A program made the translations under genes and the position numbers. Positions 6,812-47,624 of a DNA stretch of 64,000 nt are shown here, one piece after another (position 1 is the first letter of the stretch; each line of letters begins with the position of its first letter). Source of the stretch: Chryseobacterium vrystaatense (GTDB lineage: Bacteria > Bacteroidota > Bacteroidia > Flavobacteriales > Weeksellaceae); the NCBI RefSeq assembly GCF_000737765.1, contig NZ_JPRI01000001.1, positions 682,001 to 746,000 of the forward strand. The letters are read 5' to 3'. A model generated the notes under the pieces. The model was given only the letters and a program-made list of their open reading frames with translations, searched no databases and was not told the origin of the DNA.

Positions 6812-7471
6812 TTATTTCTTTACTTTAATTGTGCATCCTATAGCTACGGTTTTTGTCATTTTTACAGGCTCACTTTTGATCAGGGCATTGACTGCATCCT
6901 GAACATAGTATTCTGATACATCATTGGGGTTCTCGTAGTTATTGTCTATAGCACCAATGTATTTTACGATATTCTTTCCGTTTTCTTTCTGCAGGACAAA
7001 CACATGAGGTGTTTTGGTCGCTCCGTAAAGCGGATACACTTTCTGTCCTTCATCCACCAGATAAGGAAAGGTAAATCCTTTCTGTTTTGCTCTTTCAATC
7101 ATCTGTTGGTAACCGTCTTCAGGCTGTACATTCGGATCATTTGGATTAACAGCAATCAAAGGATAGCCCTGGTTTTTGAATTTTTTATCCAGTTCGACGA
7201 TCCTGTCTTCATACTTTTTGGCGTATGGACAATGGTTGCAGGTAAAAACGACTATAAATCCTTTTGCTCTTTTATAATCACTTAGAGAAACCATCTTTCC
7301 ATCAATATTCTTCAGCTTAAAATCAGCGGCTTCATCTCCTACCTCGTACCCTTTTACTGAAGCAGAAGTATTTGTTTTTTGAGATCCTTCTTTCTCATGG
7401 TCTGTTGTTGTAAAGCTCAACAGGCCTATCCCGGCAATGAGTGCTGCCATTAAAATTTTCAGATGTTTCAT
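6812..7471 (-). CDS. Exported thioredoxin-fold (redoxin) protein
   Basis: A 219-residue protein with an N-terminal hydrophobic signal (res 4-20), so it is likely periplasmic. The AhpC/TSA-Redoxin fold is shown by VGDEAADFKLKNIDGKMVSLSDY (split between 44 and 66) and the active site TCNHCPYAKKYEDR, with the CxxC at C78 and C81. A cis-Pro region (ATKTPHVFVLQ) follows. This Cys-Asn-His-Cys-Pro-Tyr form is typical of thioredoxin-family peroxiredoxin-like proteins of unknown partner. It lies 7 bases downstream of a TlpA-like gene and is surely cotranscribed. Its redox partner is not identifiable here. Confidence 0.83.
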   Translation of the reverse strand: MKHLKILMAALIAGIGLLSFTTTDHEKEGSQKTNTSASVKGYEVGDEAADFKLKNIDGKMVSLSDYKRAKGFIVVFTCNHCPYAKKYEDRIVELDKKFKNQGYPLIAVNPNDPNVQPEDGYQQMIERAKQKGFTFPYLVDEGQKVYPLYGATKTPHVFVLQKENGKNIVKYIGAIDNNYENPNDVSEYYVQDAVNALIKSEPVKMTKTVAIGCTIKVKK

Positions 7472-7478
7472 ATCTATT

Positions 7479-7967
7479 TTATTGTAAATTGTTATTAATA
7501 GTTTTTTCCAGGTCTTCCTTGCTCATCTCTCCATCATTGAAATATACTTTTTGTCCGTTTTTATAAAAAATCGTTACGGGAATATTCCCATCCCAGTCTT
7601 TTTCAAATCGTGGGATCCAGGTATTCATTCTTTTGATGTCGTCCAGCAGGATCACTTCCGCGGTGAGGTTTTTATTTTTAATAAACTTTAAGACCCTTTC
7701 CTTATCCACAAGCCGGTCCAGCGAAACCAGGATCATTTTAAATTTTGGATTATCCCTGAACTTAATATTGATTTCCATAAAATGAGGAAGTTCTTTTACA
7801 CACGGCGCACAGGTCGTCGCCCAGAAATTAACGACTAAAAGCTTATCATTCTCTTTTTGGATCCGCTTTTCAATATCTTCGTATTTCATTGAAGACACCT
7901 CTGTCTGCTGAGCTTTGAAAGAAACAATGCATACCAATAAGGTGAATATATATAGTAAATTCTTCAT
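7479..7967 (-). CDS. TlpA-like periplasmic thioredoxin
   Basis: A 162-residue protein with a signal peptide (about 1-19, cleaved near FKA-QQ). The thioredoxin active site FWATTCAPCVKELPHF places the CxxC at C53 and C56, and the cis-Pro is in GNIPVTIFYKNG. TlpA/ResA-like proteins reduce disulfides in exported substrates such as apocytochromes; the substrate here is unknown. It is the first gene of a two-gene unit with the redoxin protein at 6812 and is divergent from the TonB-like gene at 8026. Confidence 0.85.
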   Translation of the reverse strand: MKNLLYIFTLLVCIVSFKAQQTEVSSMKYEDIEKRIQKENDKLLVVNFWATTCAPCVKELPHFMEINIKFRDNPKFKMILVSLDRLVDKERVLKFIKNKNLTAEVILLDDIKRMNTWIPRFEKDWDGNIPVTIFYKNGQKVYFNDGEMSKEDLEKTINNNLQ

Positions 7968-8667: not shown

Positions 8668-8696
8668 TTGATTTATTTAAAAATTATGTAAATTAG
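8668..8696 (+). promoter_or_regulatory. Promoter of GG-leader peptide 1
   Basis: TTG (8668-8670), an 18-base spacer and TAAATTAG (8689-8696), a near match to the flavobacterial -33/-7 promoter. The -7 box ends 23 bases before the ATG, exactly as at the second peptide, and the sequence between box and ATG is also similar. Confidence 0.65.
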
Positions 8697-8719
8697 CTCA
8701 TAATCAAATTAAAAATATC

Positions 8720-8878
8720 ATGAAAAAATCAAATCTTCAAAAAAGAAAACTGACTAAAAAAGAATTAAAAGAAATTAATGGTGGTCAAAATGGACCATGC
8801 TGGGAAGGATTTTGCAAAAGAGGAGACTTTGAAGAATGGCAATTAGGTCCTGGTGATAAAAATGGATACTGCTGTTAA
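8720..8878 (+). CDS. GG-leader bacteriocin-like peptide 1
   Basis: A 52-residue peptide missed by usual length cut-offs. Residues 1-22 are a double-glycine leader (KLTKKELKEINGG at 10-22). The 30-residue core has four Cys at core positions 5, 10, 29 and 30 and ends NGYCC. Leader and core layout are shared with the peptides at 9040 and 9232. GG leaders are normally cut by C39 peptidases on export; no such transporter or modifying enzyme is in this window. It has its own promoter and a hairpin terminator. An antibacterial role is inference; Chryseobacterium genomes carry many such 'bacteriocin-like' peptides. Confidence 0.75.
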   Translation: MKKSNLQKRKLTKKELKEINGGQNGPCWEGFCKRGDFEEWQLGPGDKNGYCC

Positions 8879-8903
8879 TCTGACAAAACATACGACAATA
8901 AAG

Positions 8904-8931
8904 AAATGACCGGTTTATCCGGTCATTTTTT
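8904..8931 (+). terminator. Terminator after peptide 1
   Basis: Perfect 10-bp arms AAATGACCGG (8904-8913) and CCGGTCATTT (8919-8928) with a 5-base loop, running into T residues. The stem differs by one base pair from the terminator after peptide 3, which suggests the peptide units arose by duplication. Confidence 0.75.
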
Positions 8932-8986
8932 GATAAAAGGTTATCTGTAATTTACAATTTTAACATTTATTTTTAATCACAACCTA

Positions 8987-9016
8987 TTGAATTAAAAGAA
9001 ATTAAATGTAAATTAG
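8987..9016 (+). promoter_or_regulatory. Promoter of GG-leader peptides 2 and 3
   Basis: TTG (8987-8989), a 19-base spacer and TAAATTAG (9009-9016). Box and flanks resemble the promoter at 8668, including a common TGTAAATTAGC stretch, and the distance to the ATG is the same 23 bases. Confidence 0.65.
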
Positions 9017-9039
9017 CGTACAATCAAAACAAAAATATT

Positions 9040-9204
9040 ATGAAAAAATCAAATTTTCAGCTTAAAAAGCTGACCAAAAAAGAGCTTAAGAAAATTAGTG
9101 GTGGAGCAAGACCAATTTGTCCACTGGTGGTAAGTTGCTTTGATCCTGCAACCGGGGATGAGTTATACGGAGTATATGGAATCCAGAATGGCCCGTGCTG
9201 CTAA
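9040..9204 (+). CDS. GG-leader bacteriocin-like peptide 2
   Basis: A 54-residue peptide. The 22-residue leader (KKLTKKELKKISGG at the end) is nearly the same as in peptides 1 and 3. The 32-residue core differs in sequence but keeps four Cys at core positions 5, 11, 31 and 32, ending NGPCC. It shares no core identity beyond this spacing, so it may have a different target. Peptide 3 begins 27 bases after its stop with no promoter or terminator between, so both are probably on one transcript. Confidence 0.75.
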   Translation: MKKSNFQLKKLTKKELKKISGGARPICPLVVSCFDPATGDELYGVYGIQNGPCC

Positions 9205-9231
9205 ATATTGATCACCATTAATCCAAAATCT

Positions 9232-9390
9232 ATGAAAAATTCAAACATCCAAAGTAGAAAGCTCACGAAAAAAGAGCTAAAGGAAATCAACGGAGGCGCT
9301 TCATGTGCTGAAGGTCTGTGTAAACTCAGAGGGGTACCCAGCCACTTCATGATTATCGGACCGAGAGGTAAAGACGGATACTGCTGTTAA
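9232..9390 (+). CDS. GG-leader bacteriocin-like peptide 3
   Basis: A 52-residue peptide starting at the ATG at 9232. A TTG at 9208 is in frame but would add eight residues before the conserved leader, so it is rejected. The leader ends RKLTKKELKEINGG at residue 22. The core has Cys at positions 3, 8, 29 and 30 and ends GKDGYCC, close to the end of peptide 1. A Gly-Pro pair at core 21-22 is also shared with peptide 1. No processing gene lies beside it; mutS follows on the other strand. Confidence 0.76.
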   Translation: MKNSNIQSRKLTKKELKEINGGASCAEGLCKLRGVPSHFMIIGPRGKDGYCC

Positions 9391-9412
9391 TGATCTCCCG
9401 TATACAAATATG

Positions 9413-9447
9413 AAATGACTGGAATTTGTCCAGTCATTTCTTTATTT
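9413..9447. terminator. Bidirectional terminator between peptide 3 and mutS
   Basis: Perfect 10-bp arms AAATGACTGG (9413-9422) and CCAGTCATTT (9430-9439), a 7-base loop and a following T-rich run. It lies between convergent genes and probably ends both transcripts. Confidence 0.72.
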
Positions 9448-9483: not shown

Positions 9484-12072
9484 TTATCCTCCAATCATTT
9501 TTTTTATCGAATTCAGTTTCATTAACGCTTCGATAGGTGTCAAAGTATTGATGTCTATTTTAGTGAGTTCTTCACGGATATTTTCCAAAACAGGATCATC
9601 GAGCTGGAAAAAAGAAAGCTGCATATTTTGTTCTGTGACTCTCTTGATACTGTCAGAAGTATTATTGCTTTGTGAACGGCTTGCTTCGAGGGTTTTCAGG
9701 ATCTCATTGGCTCTGTTCACCACCTTTGCGGGCATTCCTGCCAGCTTAGCAACATGAATACCGAAACTGTGTTCACTGCCTCCCGGAACCAGCTTTCTCA
9801 GGAAGATGATATTTCCTTTGTTTTCCTGAATAGAAACGTGGAAATTTTTCACTCTTTCAAAATTTACAGTCATTTCATTTAACTCATGATAATGCGTTGC
9901 GAATAAGGTTTTTGCCTGTGTGGTATGCTGATGAAGATATTCCGCGATAGCCCAGGCAATGGATACCCCGTCATAGGTAGAGGTTCCACGTCCGATCTCA
10001 TCTAAAAGGATCAGACTACGTTCTGAGATATTATTCAGAATATTGGCCGCTTCATTCATTTCCACCATGAAAGTTGATTCTCCTGCAGAAATATTATCGG
10101 TCGCTCCTACCCTTGTAAATATTTTATCCAAAACCCCGATCTCAGCATGCTTTGCAGGCACAAAACTCCCGATCTGAGCCAAAAGACAAACGATCGCAGT
10201 CTGACGTAGGATCGCTGATTTACCGGCCATGTTCGGACCTGTAACCATGATGATCTGCTGCGAGTCCTTGTCCAAAAAGATATCGTTCGGAATATATTTT
10301 TCTCCTAAAGGAAGTGCATTTTCAATAATCGGATGCCTGGCTTCTTTGAGATCAATAGCATAGCCCTGATTCAGAACGGGTTTTGTATAACTCTCTGATA
10401 CTGCTAATTCTGAAAGTCCTGCTGCCACATCAATCTGTGCTATGATATTGGAGTTCCCCTGGATCTGATCCATGTACACCATTGTTTCAGCGCAAACATT
10501 CCTGTACAGTTCGTTTTCAAGGACGCCAATTTTTTCTTCGGCTCCAAGGATCTGACTTTCATATTCTTTCAGTTCTTCAGTGATATAACGTTCGGCATTC
10601 ACAAGTGTCTGCTTTCTTAGCCAGTCTCCCGGAACTTTATCTTTATGGGCATTCCTTACTTCGATATAATACCCGAAAACATTATTAAAATCTATTTTAA
10701 GGCTTGATATCCCTGTTCTTTCAATTTCTCTCTGACACATTTCGTCCAGAAATCCACGTCCTTTGCTTTGAAGATTTCTGAGCCTGTCGAGCTCTTCCGA
10801 TATGCTCGCCTTAATAATGTTTCCTTTTGAAATATTAACCGGAAGCTCTTCATTCAAATGATTCTGTAAAAACTTGATCAGCTCTTCCATATCAAACAGA
10901 GGTTCCAGCCAGGCCAGAACATCGGCATGTGGATGCAGCAAAGCTTTTATCTGATGAATATTGATCAGACTTTGGCGCAGGTAGCCCAGTTCTTTAGGGG
11001 ATATCTTTTCTGCAGCCAGTTTTCCCATCAATCGGTCAAGATCCGAAATGGACTTTAACAGCTGGCAGATTTCATATTTAAGAAGATCATTTTCATTAAG
11101 AAAATCAATCAGAGAAAGCCTTCTCATGATCTCATCTACAGATTTTAAGGGAAGAATAATCCTTCTTCTCAATAATCTTCCTCCCATAGGAGTAGATGTT
11201 TTATCGATAATATCCAGCAGTGATTTTCCCTGAGGATTGCTTGGATAGACTATTTCAAGGTTTCTCAGGGTAAAATTATCCATCATCAGATAATCTTCCT
11301 GCGGAATGATCTGAAGTTTCGTAATATGGGCAAGCAGATTATGATGGGTATCTTCTACCAGGTATGCGAAAATAGCTCCAGCTGCTGTAATCGCGAGCGG
11401 AAGATTTTCAATTCCAAAACCTTTTAAGGAATTAGTTTTAAAGTGGGAAGTCAGTTTCTCGTAGGCAAAATTATACTGAAAAGCCCAGTCTTCGAGCTTA
11501 AAGGCACTTTTGTTTTTAAGCTGTTCAGGCAACTGAACACTTCTCTGAAAGACGATTTCACTCGGATCAAAAGTATTGACGATGTGGAGGATCTTATCCA
11601 AATTCCCTTCACTCACCAAAAATTCTCCGGTAGAAACGTCTACCATGGCAATTCCATACTTTTCCTTTTCTTTATGGAGAGAAAGCAGGAAATTGTTCTT
11701 TTTTGAATTCAAAACCTGATCATTGAACGTAACTCCGGGTGTTACAAGCTCTGTAACTCCTCTTTTAACGATTCCTTTGACTGTTTTAGGATCTTCCAGC
11801 TGATCGCAGATAGCCACTCTCATTCCGGCTCTTACCAACTTTGGAAGGTAAGAATCTACTGAGTGATGTGGAAATCCCGCCAGCTCTATATGTCCGTCAC
11901 CATTAGCTCTTTTGGTAAGGACAATTCCTAAAATCTGAGATGTTCTCACGGCATCCTGCCCGAAAGTTTCATAAAAGTCTCCAACCCGGAACAAAAGCAG
12001 TGCATCAGGGTATTTTGCCTTAATGGTATTGTACTGCGTCATTAACGGGGTTTCCTTCTTCGTCTTTGCCAT
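9484..12072 (-). CDS. mutS: DNA mismatch repair protein MutS
   Basis: A full-length 862-residue MutS. It binds mispaired bases and small loops and starts methyl-independent mismatch repair with MutL. The mismatch-reading Phe-Tyr-Glu is at 33-35 in GDFYETF. The ATPase has Walker A GPNMAGKS at 612-619, the STFMVEM signature, Walker B LILLDEIGRGTS from 687, and FATHYHEL. Near the C-terminus QLSFF (818-822) fits a beta-clamp binding motif, followed by the usual last helix pair. A -7 box TAAATTTG (minus strand, 12089-12096) lies just upstream. No co-transcribed partner is apparent. Confidence 0.97.
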   Translation of the reverse strand: MAKTKKETPLMTQYNTIKAKYPDALLLFRVGDFYETFGQDAVRTSQILGIVLTKRANGDGHIELAGFPHHSVDSYLPKLVRAGMRVAICDQLEDPKTVKGIVKRGVTELVTPGVTFNDQVLNSKKNNFLLSLHKEKEKYGIAMVDVSTGEFLVSEGNLDKILHIVNTFDPSEIVFQRSVQLPEQLKNKSAFKLEDWAFQYNFAYEKLTSHFKTNSLKGFGIENLPLAITAAGAIFAYLVEDTHHNLLAHITKLQIIPQEDYLMMDNFTLRNLEIVYPSNPQGKSLLDIIDKTSTPMGGRLLRRRIILPLKSVDEIMRRLSLIDFLNENDLLKYEICQLLKSISDLDRLMGKLAAEKISPKELGYLRQSLINIHQIKALLHPHADVLAWLEPLFDMEELIKFLQNHLNEELPVNISKGNIIKASISEELDRLRNLQSKGRGFLDEMCQREIERTGISSLKIDFNNVFGYYIEVRNAHKDKVPGDWLRKQTLVNAERYITEELKEYESQILGAEEKIGVLENELYRNVCAETMVYMDQIQGNSNIIAQIDVAAGLSELAVSESYTKPVLNQGYAIDLKEARHPIIENALPLGEKYIPNDIFLDKDSQQIIMVTGPNMAGKSAILRQTAIVCLLAQIGSFVPAKHAEIGVLDKIFTRVGATDNISAGESTFMVEMNEAANILNNISERSLILLDEIGRGTSTYDGVSIAWAIAEYLHQHTTQAKTLFATHYHELNEMTVNFERVKNFHVSIQENKGNIIFLRKLVPGGSEHSFGIHVAKLAGMPAKVVNRANEILKTLEASRSQSNNTSDSIKRVTEQNMQLSFFQLDDPVLENIREELTKIDINTLTPIEALMKLNSIKKMIGG

Positions 12073-46721: not shown

Positions 46722-47480
46722 TTAACCACCACATCCTCCTCCACAACCTCCACAACCCCCGCCGCAGCCACTTCCACAACCTCCGCCTCCTCCATCCCCG
46801 CCGCTGCAGCTTGAACCACCTCCATCGCTGCTTCCGCCTATGCTGCCATCATCTTTCTTTTTAGCGTCGGTATTTTCGATGTTAACCTGAAATGCGCCGA
46901 CAATATGAAAGAAAATGAAAAAGCCTATGATTGGTAATGCGATTAATGTTAATGATCCTAAAACTTCTCCCAGACAGGATGACAGCATAAGAAGAGCAGC
47001 CAATAAAGGAATGATTTTTAACCTTTTAAGCCAAATTTTCTTACGCTCTGTCTTCTCTCTCTCATACCAAATATCTGTTGGGGCTTCCTGCTGAAAGATC
47101 TCCTGATAACTTTTCAAGGTATCTGAAAACCAGTTCCGGTGTTTGCTGTTTTCTTTAGATCCTCCTTTTGACGGATGATGATGAAGTTTTCTTTTTAAAA
47201 TATTCGGACAGAAATCTTCCCAGTAACTCTGGGTGTAAATCAGGTGCATGTGCCATACTTTATCTACCGTTTCACTTGGAGAAGCGCCATTAGGAAGAAT
47301 ACAGCAGAGGTAAACAAATTTTTTATACTCCTGAATCGCTTTCTGAGTAAAATCCACAGTCCAGCGCTCTTCTTTCGCCAGCTTTTTCGAAAAAGGGAAA
47401 TCAGCATCAGAAGCATCCAGTGAAAAGTTTTGAATCCTGTTCCAAAGGGTTTCGTCTTTTAATAAGATTGTTGTTTCCAT
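46722..47480 (-). CDS. Membrane protein with GRDP-like domain and Gly/Cys-rich tail
   Basis: A 252-residue protein from the ATG at 47480 (an ATG at 47507 would add nine residues). Residues 40-95 contain VDKVWHMHLIYTQSYWEDFC, the glycine-rich-domain-like signature with paired His. Two membrane helices follow (about 157-171 and 174-196). The last 40 residues are almost only Gly, Ser and Cys, with Cys at 225, 235, 239, 243, 246 and 250. This resembles proteins of the TIGR04222 kind. The tail could bind metal or be cross-linked; its role is unknown. Confidence 0.68.
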   Translation of the reverse strand: METTILLKDETLWNRIQNFSLDASDADFPFSKKLAKEERWTVDFTQKAIQEYKKFVYLCCILPNGASPSETVDKVWHMHLIYTQSYWEDFCPNILKRKLHHHPSKGGSKENSKHRNWFSDTLKSYQEIFQQEAPTDIWYEREKTERKKIWLKRLKIIPLLAALLMLSSCLGEVLGSLTLIALPIIGFFIFFHIVGAFQVNIENTDAKKKDDGSIGGSSDGGGSSCSGGDGGGGGCGSGCGGGCGGCGGGCGG

Positions 47481-47624
47481 TGTGTTAACTTTTATTTTTC
47501 TACTCAAATATCATTTGATTGTAAAATATAAAAGTCTTTCATAAATCTTATTTGGTTGTATAAAAATCTTATATTAGTCTTATTAAAAAATGGCGATCTT
47601 TTCACTTATAACTAAAACAGACTA

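Follow-up and report, generated by a model that had tools for sequence, protein, structure and literature searches.

A tandem array of three small genes in Chryseobacterium vrystaatense encodes double-glycine (GG) leader peptides that end in a pair of cysteines, and it is one member of a family, termed here the CC family, that recurs at the same site in relatives of the genus. The array lies in a stretch of 64,000 nucleotides, referred to below as the window, and is more ordered than first described: it represents a conserved genus-wide family and is likely to have a partner system elsewhere in the genome. We consider it reasonably probable that the peptides are cut and exported by the C39-peptidase ABC transporter of an operon on contig C1, and oxidised in trans by a VKOR-thioredoxin fusion protein from the same operon that carries a leader-docking head. 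The initial annotation of the window had described GG-leader peptides with preserved cysteines and with maturation encoded elsewhere, which holds, and diversifying selection on their cores, which does not.

Organisation of the array and its site

The array, its putative signals and its downstream neighbour are as follows.

8689..8719, + strand: putative promoter box TAAATTAG (8689-8696) and 5' UTR of gene 1, from the TANNTTWG statistics
8720..8878, + strand: gene 1, GG-leader peptide of 52 aa, subtype C (C-x4-C-x18-CC), from the ORF list, sequence and subtype patterns
8904..8928, no strand assigned: terminator-like inverted repeat after gene 1, 10 pairs, reported by the repeat scan for the - strand alone
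9009..9039, + strand: putative promoter box TAAATTAG (9009-9016), identical to the gene 1 box, and 5' UTR of genes 2-3
9040..9204, + strand: gene 2, GG-leader peptide of 54 aa, subtype B (C-x5-C-x19-CC), from the ORF list, sequence and subtype patterns
9232..9390, + strand: gene 3, GG-leader peptide of 52 aa, subtype A (C-x4-C-x20-CC), 27 nt past gene 2
9412..9440, no strand assigned: terminator-like inverted repeat common to gene 3 and the convergent mutS, 12-pair stem, found on both strands
9484..12072, - strand: mutS, a convergent conserved neighbour that marks the site and stands outside the function, from relatives' loci

The ORF of gene 3 was listed from an upstream TTG, and the 52-aa form starts at the ATG at 9232. 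As had been described, all three peptides have a 22-residue leader ending in GG and a core with four cysteines that ends in CC. The leaders carry Leu at -12, Leu at -7 and Ile at -4 (3/3), and residues K10 L11 T12 K13 K14 E15 L16 K17, I19, G21 and G22 are invariant among them. That the three are real genes is borne out by the ORFs, which were recovered, exceed shuffled controls and recur in relatives. Scanning the window for GG-leader ORFs with at least two core cysteines returned these three and one unrelated Gly-rich ORF, while the mean over 30 first-order Markov shuffles of the same 64 kb was 0.37 such ORFs, and no CC-ending GG-leader ORF was present in a second set of 30. The Gly-rich ORF (46722-47507, - strand) has a Gly/Cys-rich C-terminal tail, GGGCGSGCGGGCGG, and is a chance match to the GG pattern.

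A Pfam search of the three peptides gave nothing above cut-off. The bacteriocin_sig model TIGR01847 scored above its cut-off of 15.7 for each of them (16.4, 19.7 and 16.7), and the YGNGVxC motif of class IIa (pediocin-like) bacteriocins (PMC6671954) is absent from the three sequences. A search of solved structures with the CC-family profile returned one chance match (E 0.37).

Genes 1 and 2 are separated by 161 nt, genes 2 and 3 by 27 nt, and gene 3 and mutS by 93 nt. The box TANNTTWG occurs at -50 to -15 of the first gene in 52/61 arrays, compared with 151/5000 random positions. Before internal genes it is found in 17/29 cases when the preceding gap is at least 60 nt and in 0/93 when it is shorter, and we infer that it is a promoter element. 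The + strand end of the inverted repeat after gene 1 runs into six T (8926-8931). Two boxes, together with inverted repeats past gene 1 and gene 3, suggest that the array probably makes two transcripts, such that gene 1 would have its own promoter and genes 2 and 3 (subtypes B and A) would form a conserved pair.

The site itself is fixed, with mutS downstream on the opposite strand in 59/60 relatives' loci. When approximately 2.6 kb at the mutS end was read on the array's own strand in 52 genomes, a GG-Cys ORF was seen in 15/15 genomes positive for the CC family and in 0/37 negative ones.

Conservation and selection within the CC family

A profile built from the three window peptides detected the family in 93/173 Chryseobacterium genomes (E 1e-8). 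With a wider profile (24 peptides, E 1e-6) it was found in 104/320 genomes of Weeksellaceae, all within one of 33 genera, although approximately ten of the 104 have one weak match each that may be to the leader only. The loci of the best-scoring 60 of the 93 positive genomes were then read. From the 185 ORFs caught, two were dropped before subtypes were counted (the unrelated L092:5024, and L126:1703, in which CC is followed by a four-residue tail), leaving 183 peptides, 180 from the 60 relatives and three from the window; one peptide with CC plus two residues was retained.

The initial annotation had proposed a profile search for the leader and the Cys pattern in flavobacterial genomes, and both are kept in the relatives: C-x(3-5)-C is present in 183/183 peptides and CC forms the end of 182/183. 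Conservation of the leader in this set is partly built in, because the pattern used to gather the relatives' peptides demanded hydrophobic residues at -12, -7 and -4 followed by GG, GA or GS. There are exactly four cysteines in 172/183 peptides and six in the remaining 11, which make up subtype F.

Hand-written patterns divide the 183 peptides into seven subtypes, A to G, of which A is present in 57/61 genomes and B in 58/61. The gene order in the window is C, B, A, and among the 60 relatives B directly precedes A 52 times, in 48 cases with a gap of 21-56 nt. Arrays contain up to six peptides, and genomes up to eight family matches. In L081, L084, L091 and other loci many leaders of subtypes B, C and E end in GA or GS, not GG; the last leader residue is relaxed in these subtypes.

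The widely differing cores had been taken as a sign of diversifying selection. Paralogs do differ, but within any one subtype the peptides are kept from genome to genome, with core dN/dS values between 0.092 and 0.382. For pairs with 0.1-0.6 synonymous differences per site, the core ratio (leader ratio in brackets) is 0.092 (0.215) for A, 0.169 (0.255) for B, 0.159 (0.154) for C, 0.113 (0.089) for D, 0.382 (0.246) for E, which pools several lineages, and 0.176 (0.129) and 0.141 (0.142) for F and G, where the core values come from 11 and 5 pairs. It can be seen that A and B cores evolve more slowly than their leaders, while the cores of C, D, E and F have a higher ratio than their leaders, by a margin that ranges from slight to clear. 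We conclude that a few old paralogs are under purifying selection, which is weakest in E.

This pattern bears on what the mature peptides do. By analogy with bacteroidetocins, our best guess is bacteriocin-like antagonism of relatives, with signalling in second place. The combination of a fixed site and strong purifying selection is unlike many bacteriocins and counts against a weapon role. The peptides, matured in the same way, might instead be signals sensed by kin or self-acting regulators, an alternative that we regard as possible but clearly the less probable. The low core dN/dS (0.092 in subtype A), the constant position at mutS and the near-ubiquity of A and B (57 and 58 of 61 genomes) all fit such a role, and an immunity gene would not fit into the gaps of 161, 27 and 93 nt that separate the peptides from one another and from mutS. 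On the other side, up to six peptides per array and eight family matches per genome exceed the need of a simple pheromone. The missing immunity gene is itself not evidence for signals, because bacteroidetocin regions are also without an obvious one (PMC6671954).

A putative export and oxidation operon on contig C1

The absence of a C39 peptidase from the 64 kb, from which maturation elsewhere had been postulated, was confirmed: none of the seven C39 matches in the genome (0/7) falls in the window. The genome search that had been suggested identified five C39 genes above the Pfam cut-off, all outside the window. Neither of the two VKOR matches in the genome (0/2) is in the window, and one of these genes is above the Pfam cut-off; the sole MNIO (DUF692) match is likewise outside. 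Four of the C39 genes have LanC-like, radical-SAM, lantibiotic-dehydratase or thioredoxin-like genes in their neighbourhood. The fifth belongs to an operon at approximately C1:18991-25115 of the same genome (G000), some 665 kb from the array, in which the gene for a VKOR-thioredoxin protein of 502 aa is followed by those for two GG-Cys peptides, the C39 ABC transporter, a further GG-Cys peptide and an HlyD-like adaptor. Its two central features are listed below.

C1:18991-20496: VKOR-thioredoxin fusion (Pfam VKOR 39.4 bits, Thioredoxin_4 36.3 bits)
G000, C1:21173-23368: C39-peptidase ABC transporter, with a C39 Pfam match

The leaders of the operon's peptides have L/V/I at -12, L at -7, I/L at -4 and GG, a layout common to the array. 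NCBIfam already has a Chryseobacterium leader model named 'bacteriocin-like protein' (NF047798, leader_Chryseo), which, like the present set, concerns GG leaders from Chryseobacterium whose cores are small and rich in Cys, among them those of the VKOR-operon peptides (38.1, 35.7 and 29.8 bits). The window peptides differ in falling below its cut-off (19, 18.5 and 19 against 23.5 bits) and in having a longer leader, since the model spans 18 leader positions only. The source genome contains at least 49 matches to this model (E <= 0.05). The 27 of 30 profile matches that lie outside the window were inspected by eye, and each proved to be a small ORF that has two or more cysteines and a leader of the GG or GA type.

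The operon is conserved in the genus. Among the source locus and those of 19 relatives picked for diversity, the transporter was present in 18/20 and at least one GG-Cys ORF in 18/20; in the two loci without the transporter (L160 and L162) the contig or stretch ends first, and in L162 the transporter lies just outside. In a class sample of 395 genomes the fusion was found at E 1e-20 in 14, of which 11 belong to other genera, and these 11 loci contain the transporter in nine cases, the adaptor in eight and a GG-Cys ORF in six. One locus from another genus (L281, G565:C4:133000-151000) has two VKOR fusions close together, 27% and 45% identical to that of the source genome, in a stretch that holds one C39 transporter.

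The fold of the fusion was predicted with AlphaFold. The full-length model is of middling confidence (mean pLDDT 72.1, pTM 0.43). In it, residues 135-282 match VKOR (4nv5_B; Z 14.7, rmsd 4.2, 132 aligned) and residues 336-501 match the DsbA-like ScsC (5idr_C; Z 14.0, rmsd 2.9, 159 aligned). The head, predicted alone, reached a pLDDT of 83.5, with two of five models much poorer. It resembles the PCAT1 peptidase (7n87; Z 11.6, rmsd 3.3, 114 aligned), a GG protease-leader complex (6mpz_B; Z 11.0, rmsd 3.0, 108 aligned) and a non-catalytic C39-like domain (3zua; Z 10.3, rmsd 3.1, 110 aligned), and Foldseek placed C39 on its top ranks (TM 0.72 by query length). The margin is modest, since the best of the other papain-like proteins (9l5u) reaches Z 9.8; the full-length coverage and the Foldseek ranks favour C39 over other papain-like folds. 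By sequence the head is not recognised as C39, with a Pfam match of only E 0.13 (14 bits) and a profile-profile probability of 0.6%. A C39-peptidase fold is thus a prediction from structural models.

No cysteine is present in the head (first 130 residues) in any of the aligned genus fusions (26/26 and 10/10), so that on the predicted fold the genus head is a dead C39 domain without a catalytic Cys; outside the genus, 6/12 heads have one or two cysteines at varying places. By contrast, C175, C187, C254, C257, C366 and C369, which form the VKOR CxxC, a loop Cys pair and the thioredoxin CxxC, are invariant in 26/26 fusions, and the VKOR and thioredoxin CxxC motifs are kept in 13/13 compared fusions, 12 of them from outside the genus.

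The LahT/PCAT C39 proteases and HlyB have the fold predicted for the fusion head, and the C39-like domain of HlyB is also non-catalytic (PMC6363468); they differ in that the head here is part of a disulfide-forming enzyme instead of an ABC transporter. In the LahT structure, the bound leader helix puts -4, -7 and -12 in a groove approximately 20 Å from the active site (PMC6363468), so that leader binding could persist in a C39 domain that has lost catalysis. The window leaders are hydrophobic at these same positions, which supports handling by C39 domains, and the models suggest that the dead head probably docks GG leaders without cutting them. The Synechococcus VKOR-thioredoxin protein (4nv2, 4nv5 and 3kp9; entry name VKORC1/thioredoxin domain protein) shares the VKOR domain, but its VKOR part alone was matched, whereas here a C39-like head stands in front and the C-terminal part is DsbA/ScsC-like.

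Across the 173 Chryseobacterium genomes, the fusion is present in 162 and GG leaders are present in 162. Both occur in 160 genomes, neither in nine, the fusion only in two (G138, and G030 with a weak fusion match of 6e-34) and leaders only in two (G069 with four, G004 with one), an association with a Fisher p of 9.6e-12, uncorrected for kinship; the top leader count per genome reads at least 49. All 93 CC-positive genomes carry the fusion. In the 11 fusion-negative genomes the C1 transporter is matched at E = 0 in G004 and at 1e-201 to 1e-227 in six, with none at 1e-150 in the other four. One genome that is 75% complete (G129) has the CC family and the fusion and gave no transporter match at 1e-150.

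Kinship was addressed with a mutS tree of 53 genes, from 52 chosen genomes, including all 11 fusion-negative ones, and the window. On this tree, made from one gene by a quick method that does not separate gain from loss, fusion presence needs nine changes, and starred branches force at least six of these. As 89/500 shuffles were as low, the fusion-negative label shows little more clustering than expected by chance and is scattered, not one clade. With G030 scored as without fusion and leaders counted as present at five or more, the leaders follow the fusion in an average of 3.8 of five independent pairs and never go the opposite way (median p 0.125 in a sign test that cannot reach 0.05 with five pairs). 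We conclude that the fusion and the genus GG leaders occur together, and that on the one-gene tree this holds across several distinct changes.

We infer the following route. The 22-residue leader would be recognised and cut after GG by the C1 C39-peptidase ABC transporter, which would export the peptide with the HlyD-like adaptor, and the four core cysteines would form two disulfides through the adjacent VKOR-thioredoxin protein. The Cys-less head probably docks the same leaders uncut, so that oxidation would be coupled to export, and the module would act in trans, its clients being dozens of GG-leader peptides with cysteines encoded at scattered places in the genome. The distance of the array from the module, the four other C39 genes in the genome, the NF047798 scores of the CC leaders below cut-off and the exceptional genomes G138, G030, G069, G004 and G129 count against this route.

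The other C39 genes raise the alternative that another C39 system, with lanthionine, radical-SAM or thioredoxin partners, processes the peptides and perhaps modifies their cysteines; all four genes are above cut-off and lie by such partners. We consider this improbable, since the leader of the precursors by the LanC-like locus is longer and of another kind, while the C1-operon leaders match the array layout. Moreover, 93/93 CC-positive genomes have the C1-type fusion, and the C1 transporter is missing or represented by a weaker homologue in 10/11 fusion-negative genomes, all of them CC-negative.

It is less probable still that the terminal CC and the two upstream cysteines bind copper or zinc and that the peptides serve metal handling. 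The constancy of C-x(3-5)-C (183/183) and of CC as the last two residues (182/183) would suit metal binding, and MNIO-modified bufferins chelate copper (PMC12452194). The sole MNIO gene is outside the window, though, and the peptides are without CPxCGxG, the C-terminal motif given for ChrH-class MNIO substrates in PMC12636315. A ChrA-type MNIO-modified product was also considered as a class for the three peptides and rejected on the same two counts.

Local oxidation by the two upstream thioredoxin-like genes (6812-7471 and 7479-7967), which resemble thiol-disulfide oxidoreductase models below cut-off and are upstream in 53 and 51 of 60 CC loci, is very improbable, because they also stand near mutS where the array is missing (18 and 19 of 37 genomes; with the array present the figure is 13 of 15 for either gene, an excess uncorrected for kinship) and so look like plain neighbours.

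Comparison with described systems

The closest described relatives are the bacteroidetocins, toxins active against Bacteroidota that were proposed as class IIf (PMC6671954). They too are Bacteroidota GG-leader peptides with four cysteines and a C39 ABC transporter, and their required number of cysteines (at least two, with four in the founding members; PMC6671954) is matched here by four in 172/183 peptides and six in 11. The differences lie in the leader (15-16 aa, compared with 22 aa in the window peptides), in the mature peptide (at least 42 aa, compared with 30-32 here) and in the genes, which sit together with those for a 5-TM protein, a C39 transporter and mostly a thiol oxidoreductase (PMC6671954), whereas precursor and machinery are far apart here. 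The proposed oxidase here is a VKOR-thioredoxin fusion with a predicted C39-like head. The window, with two thioredoxin-like genes upstream of the array, has no C39 or VKOR match, and the peptides are not filed as bacteroidetocins because leader length and linked genes do not agree.

By analogy, the window peptides probably work like bacteroidetocins up to secretion. Loss of the bacteroidetocin thiol oxidoreductase abolishes or weakens activity. A bacteroidetocin made by chemical synthesis nevertheless showed activity although its disulfides had not been formed deliberately (both PMC6671954), so that disulfides may not matter for activity. Literature searches among openly licensed PubMed Central papers listed none on this peptide set or on a VKOR-C39 fusion.

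More tentatively, as an idea that we hold to be quite possible without favouring it, one dead-C39-headed membrane oxidase and one C39 transporter may together serve dozens of unrelated Cys-rich cores genome-wide. In prochlorosins, one modifying system acts on many scattered precursors with a shared leader, and ProcM installs lanthionines; here disulfides made by a membrane oxidase are proposed in their place. If true, promiscuous lanthipeptide systems would have an equivalent based on disulfides, and the CC-ending array would be one of its clients, a strongly conserved one. Chryseobacterium genomes contain dozens of small Cys-rich GG peptides known only as 'bacteriocin-like', and their link to one conserved export-and-oxidation operon offers a testable route to the mature form; deleting a single gene should switch off all of them. 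It would also be unusual for disulfides to be steered to chosen substrates by a dead C39 domain on a VKOR protein.

Three further loci of the source genome contain related elements. L128 (G000:C7:198000-216000) is a lanthipeptide-type cluster in which a LanC-like protein and a C39 ABC transporter accompany four GG precursors that hardly differ from one another and have the core CSCCH-xSC. L131 (G000:C6:202000-220000), with a C39 ABC transporter, a ResA/TlpA-like protein and a 53-aa GG peptide, resembles a bacteroidetocin region. Another tandem array, in L132 (G000:C9:8000-22000), encodes four GG-Cys peptides with cores ending near C-A-x-x-E/Q-C-R-P.
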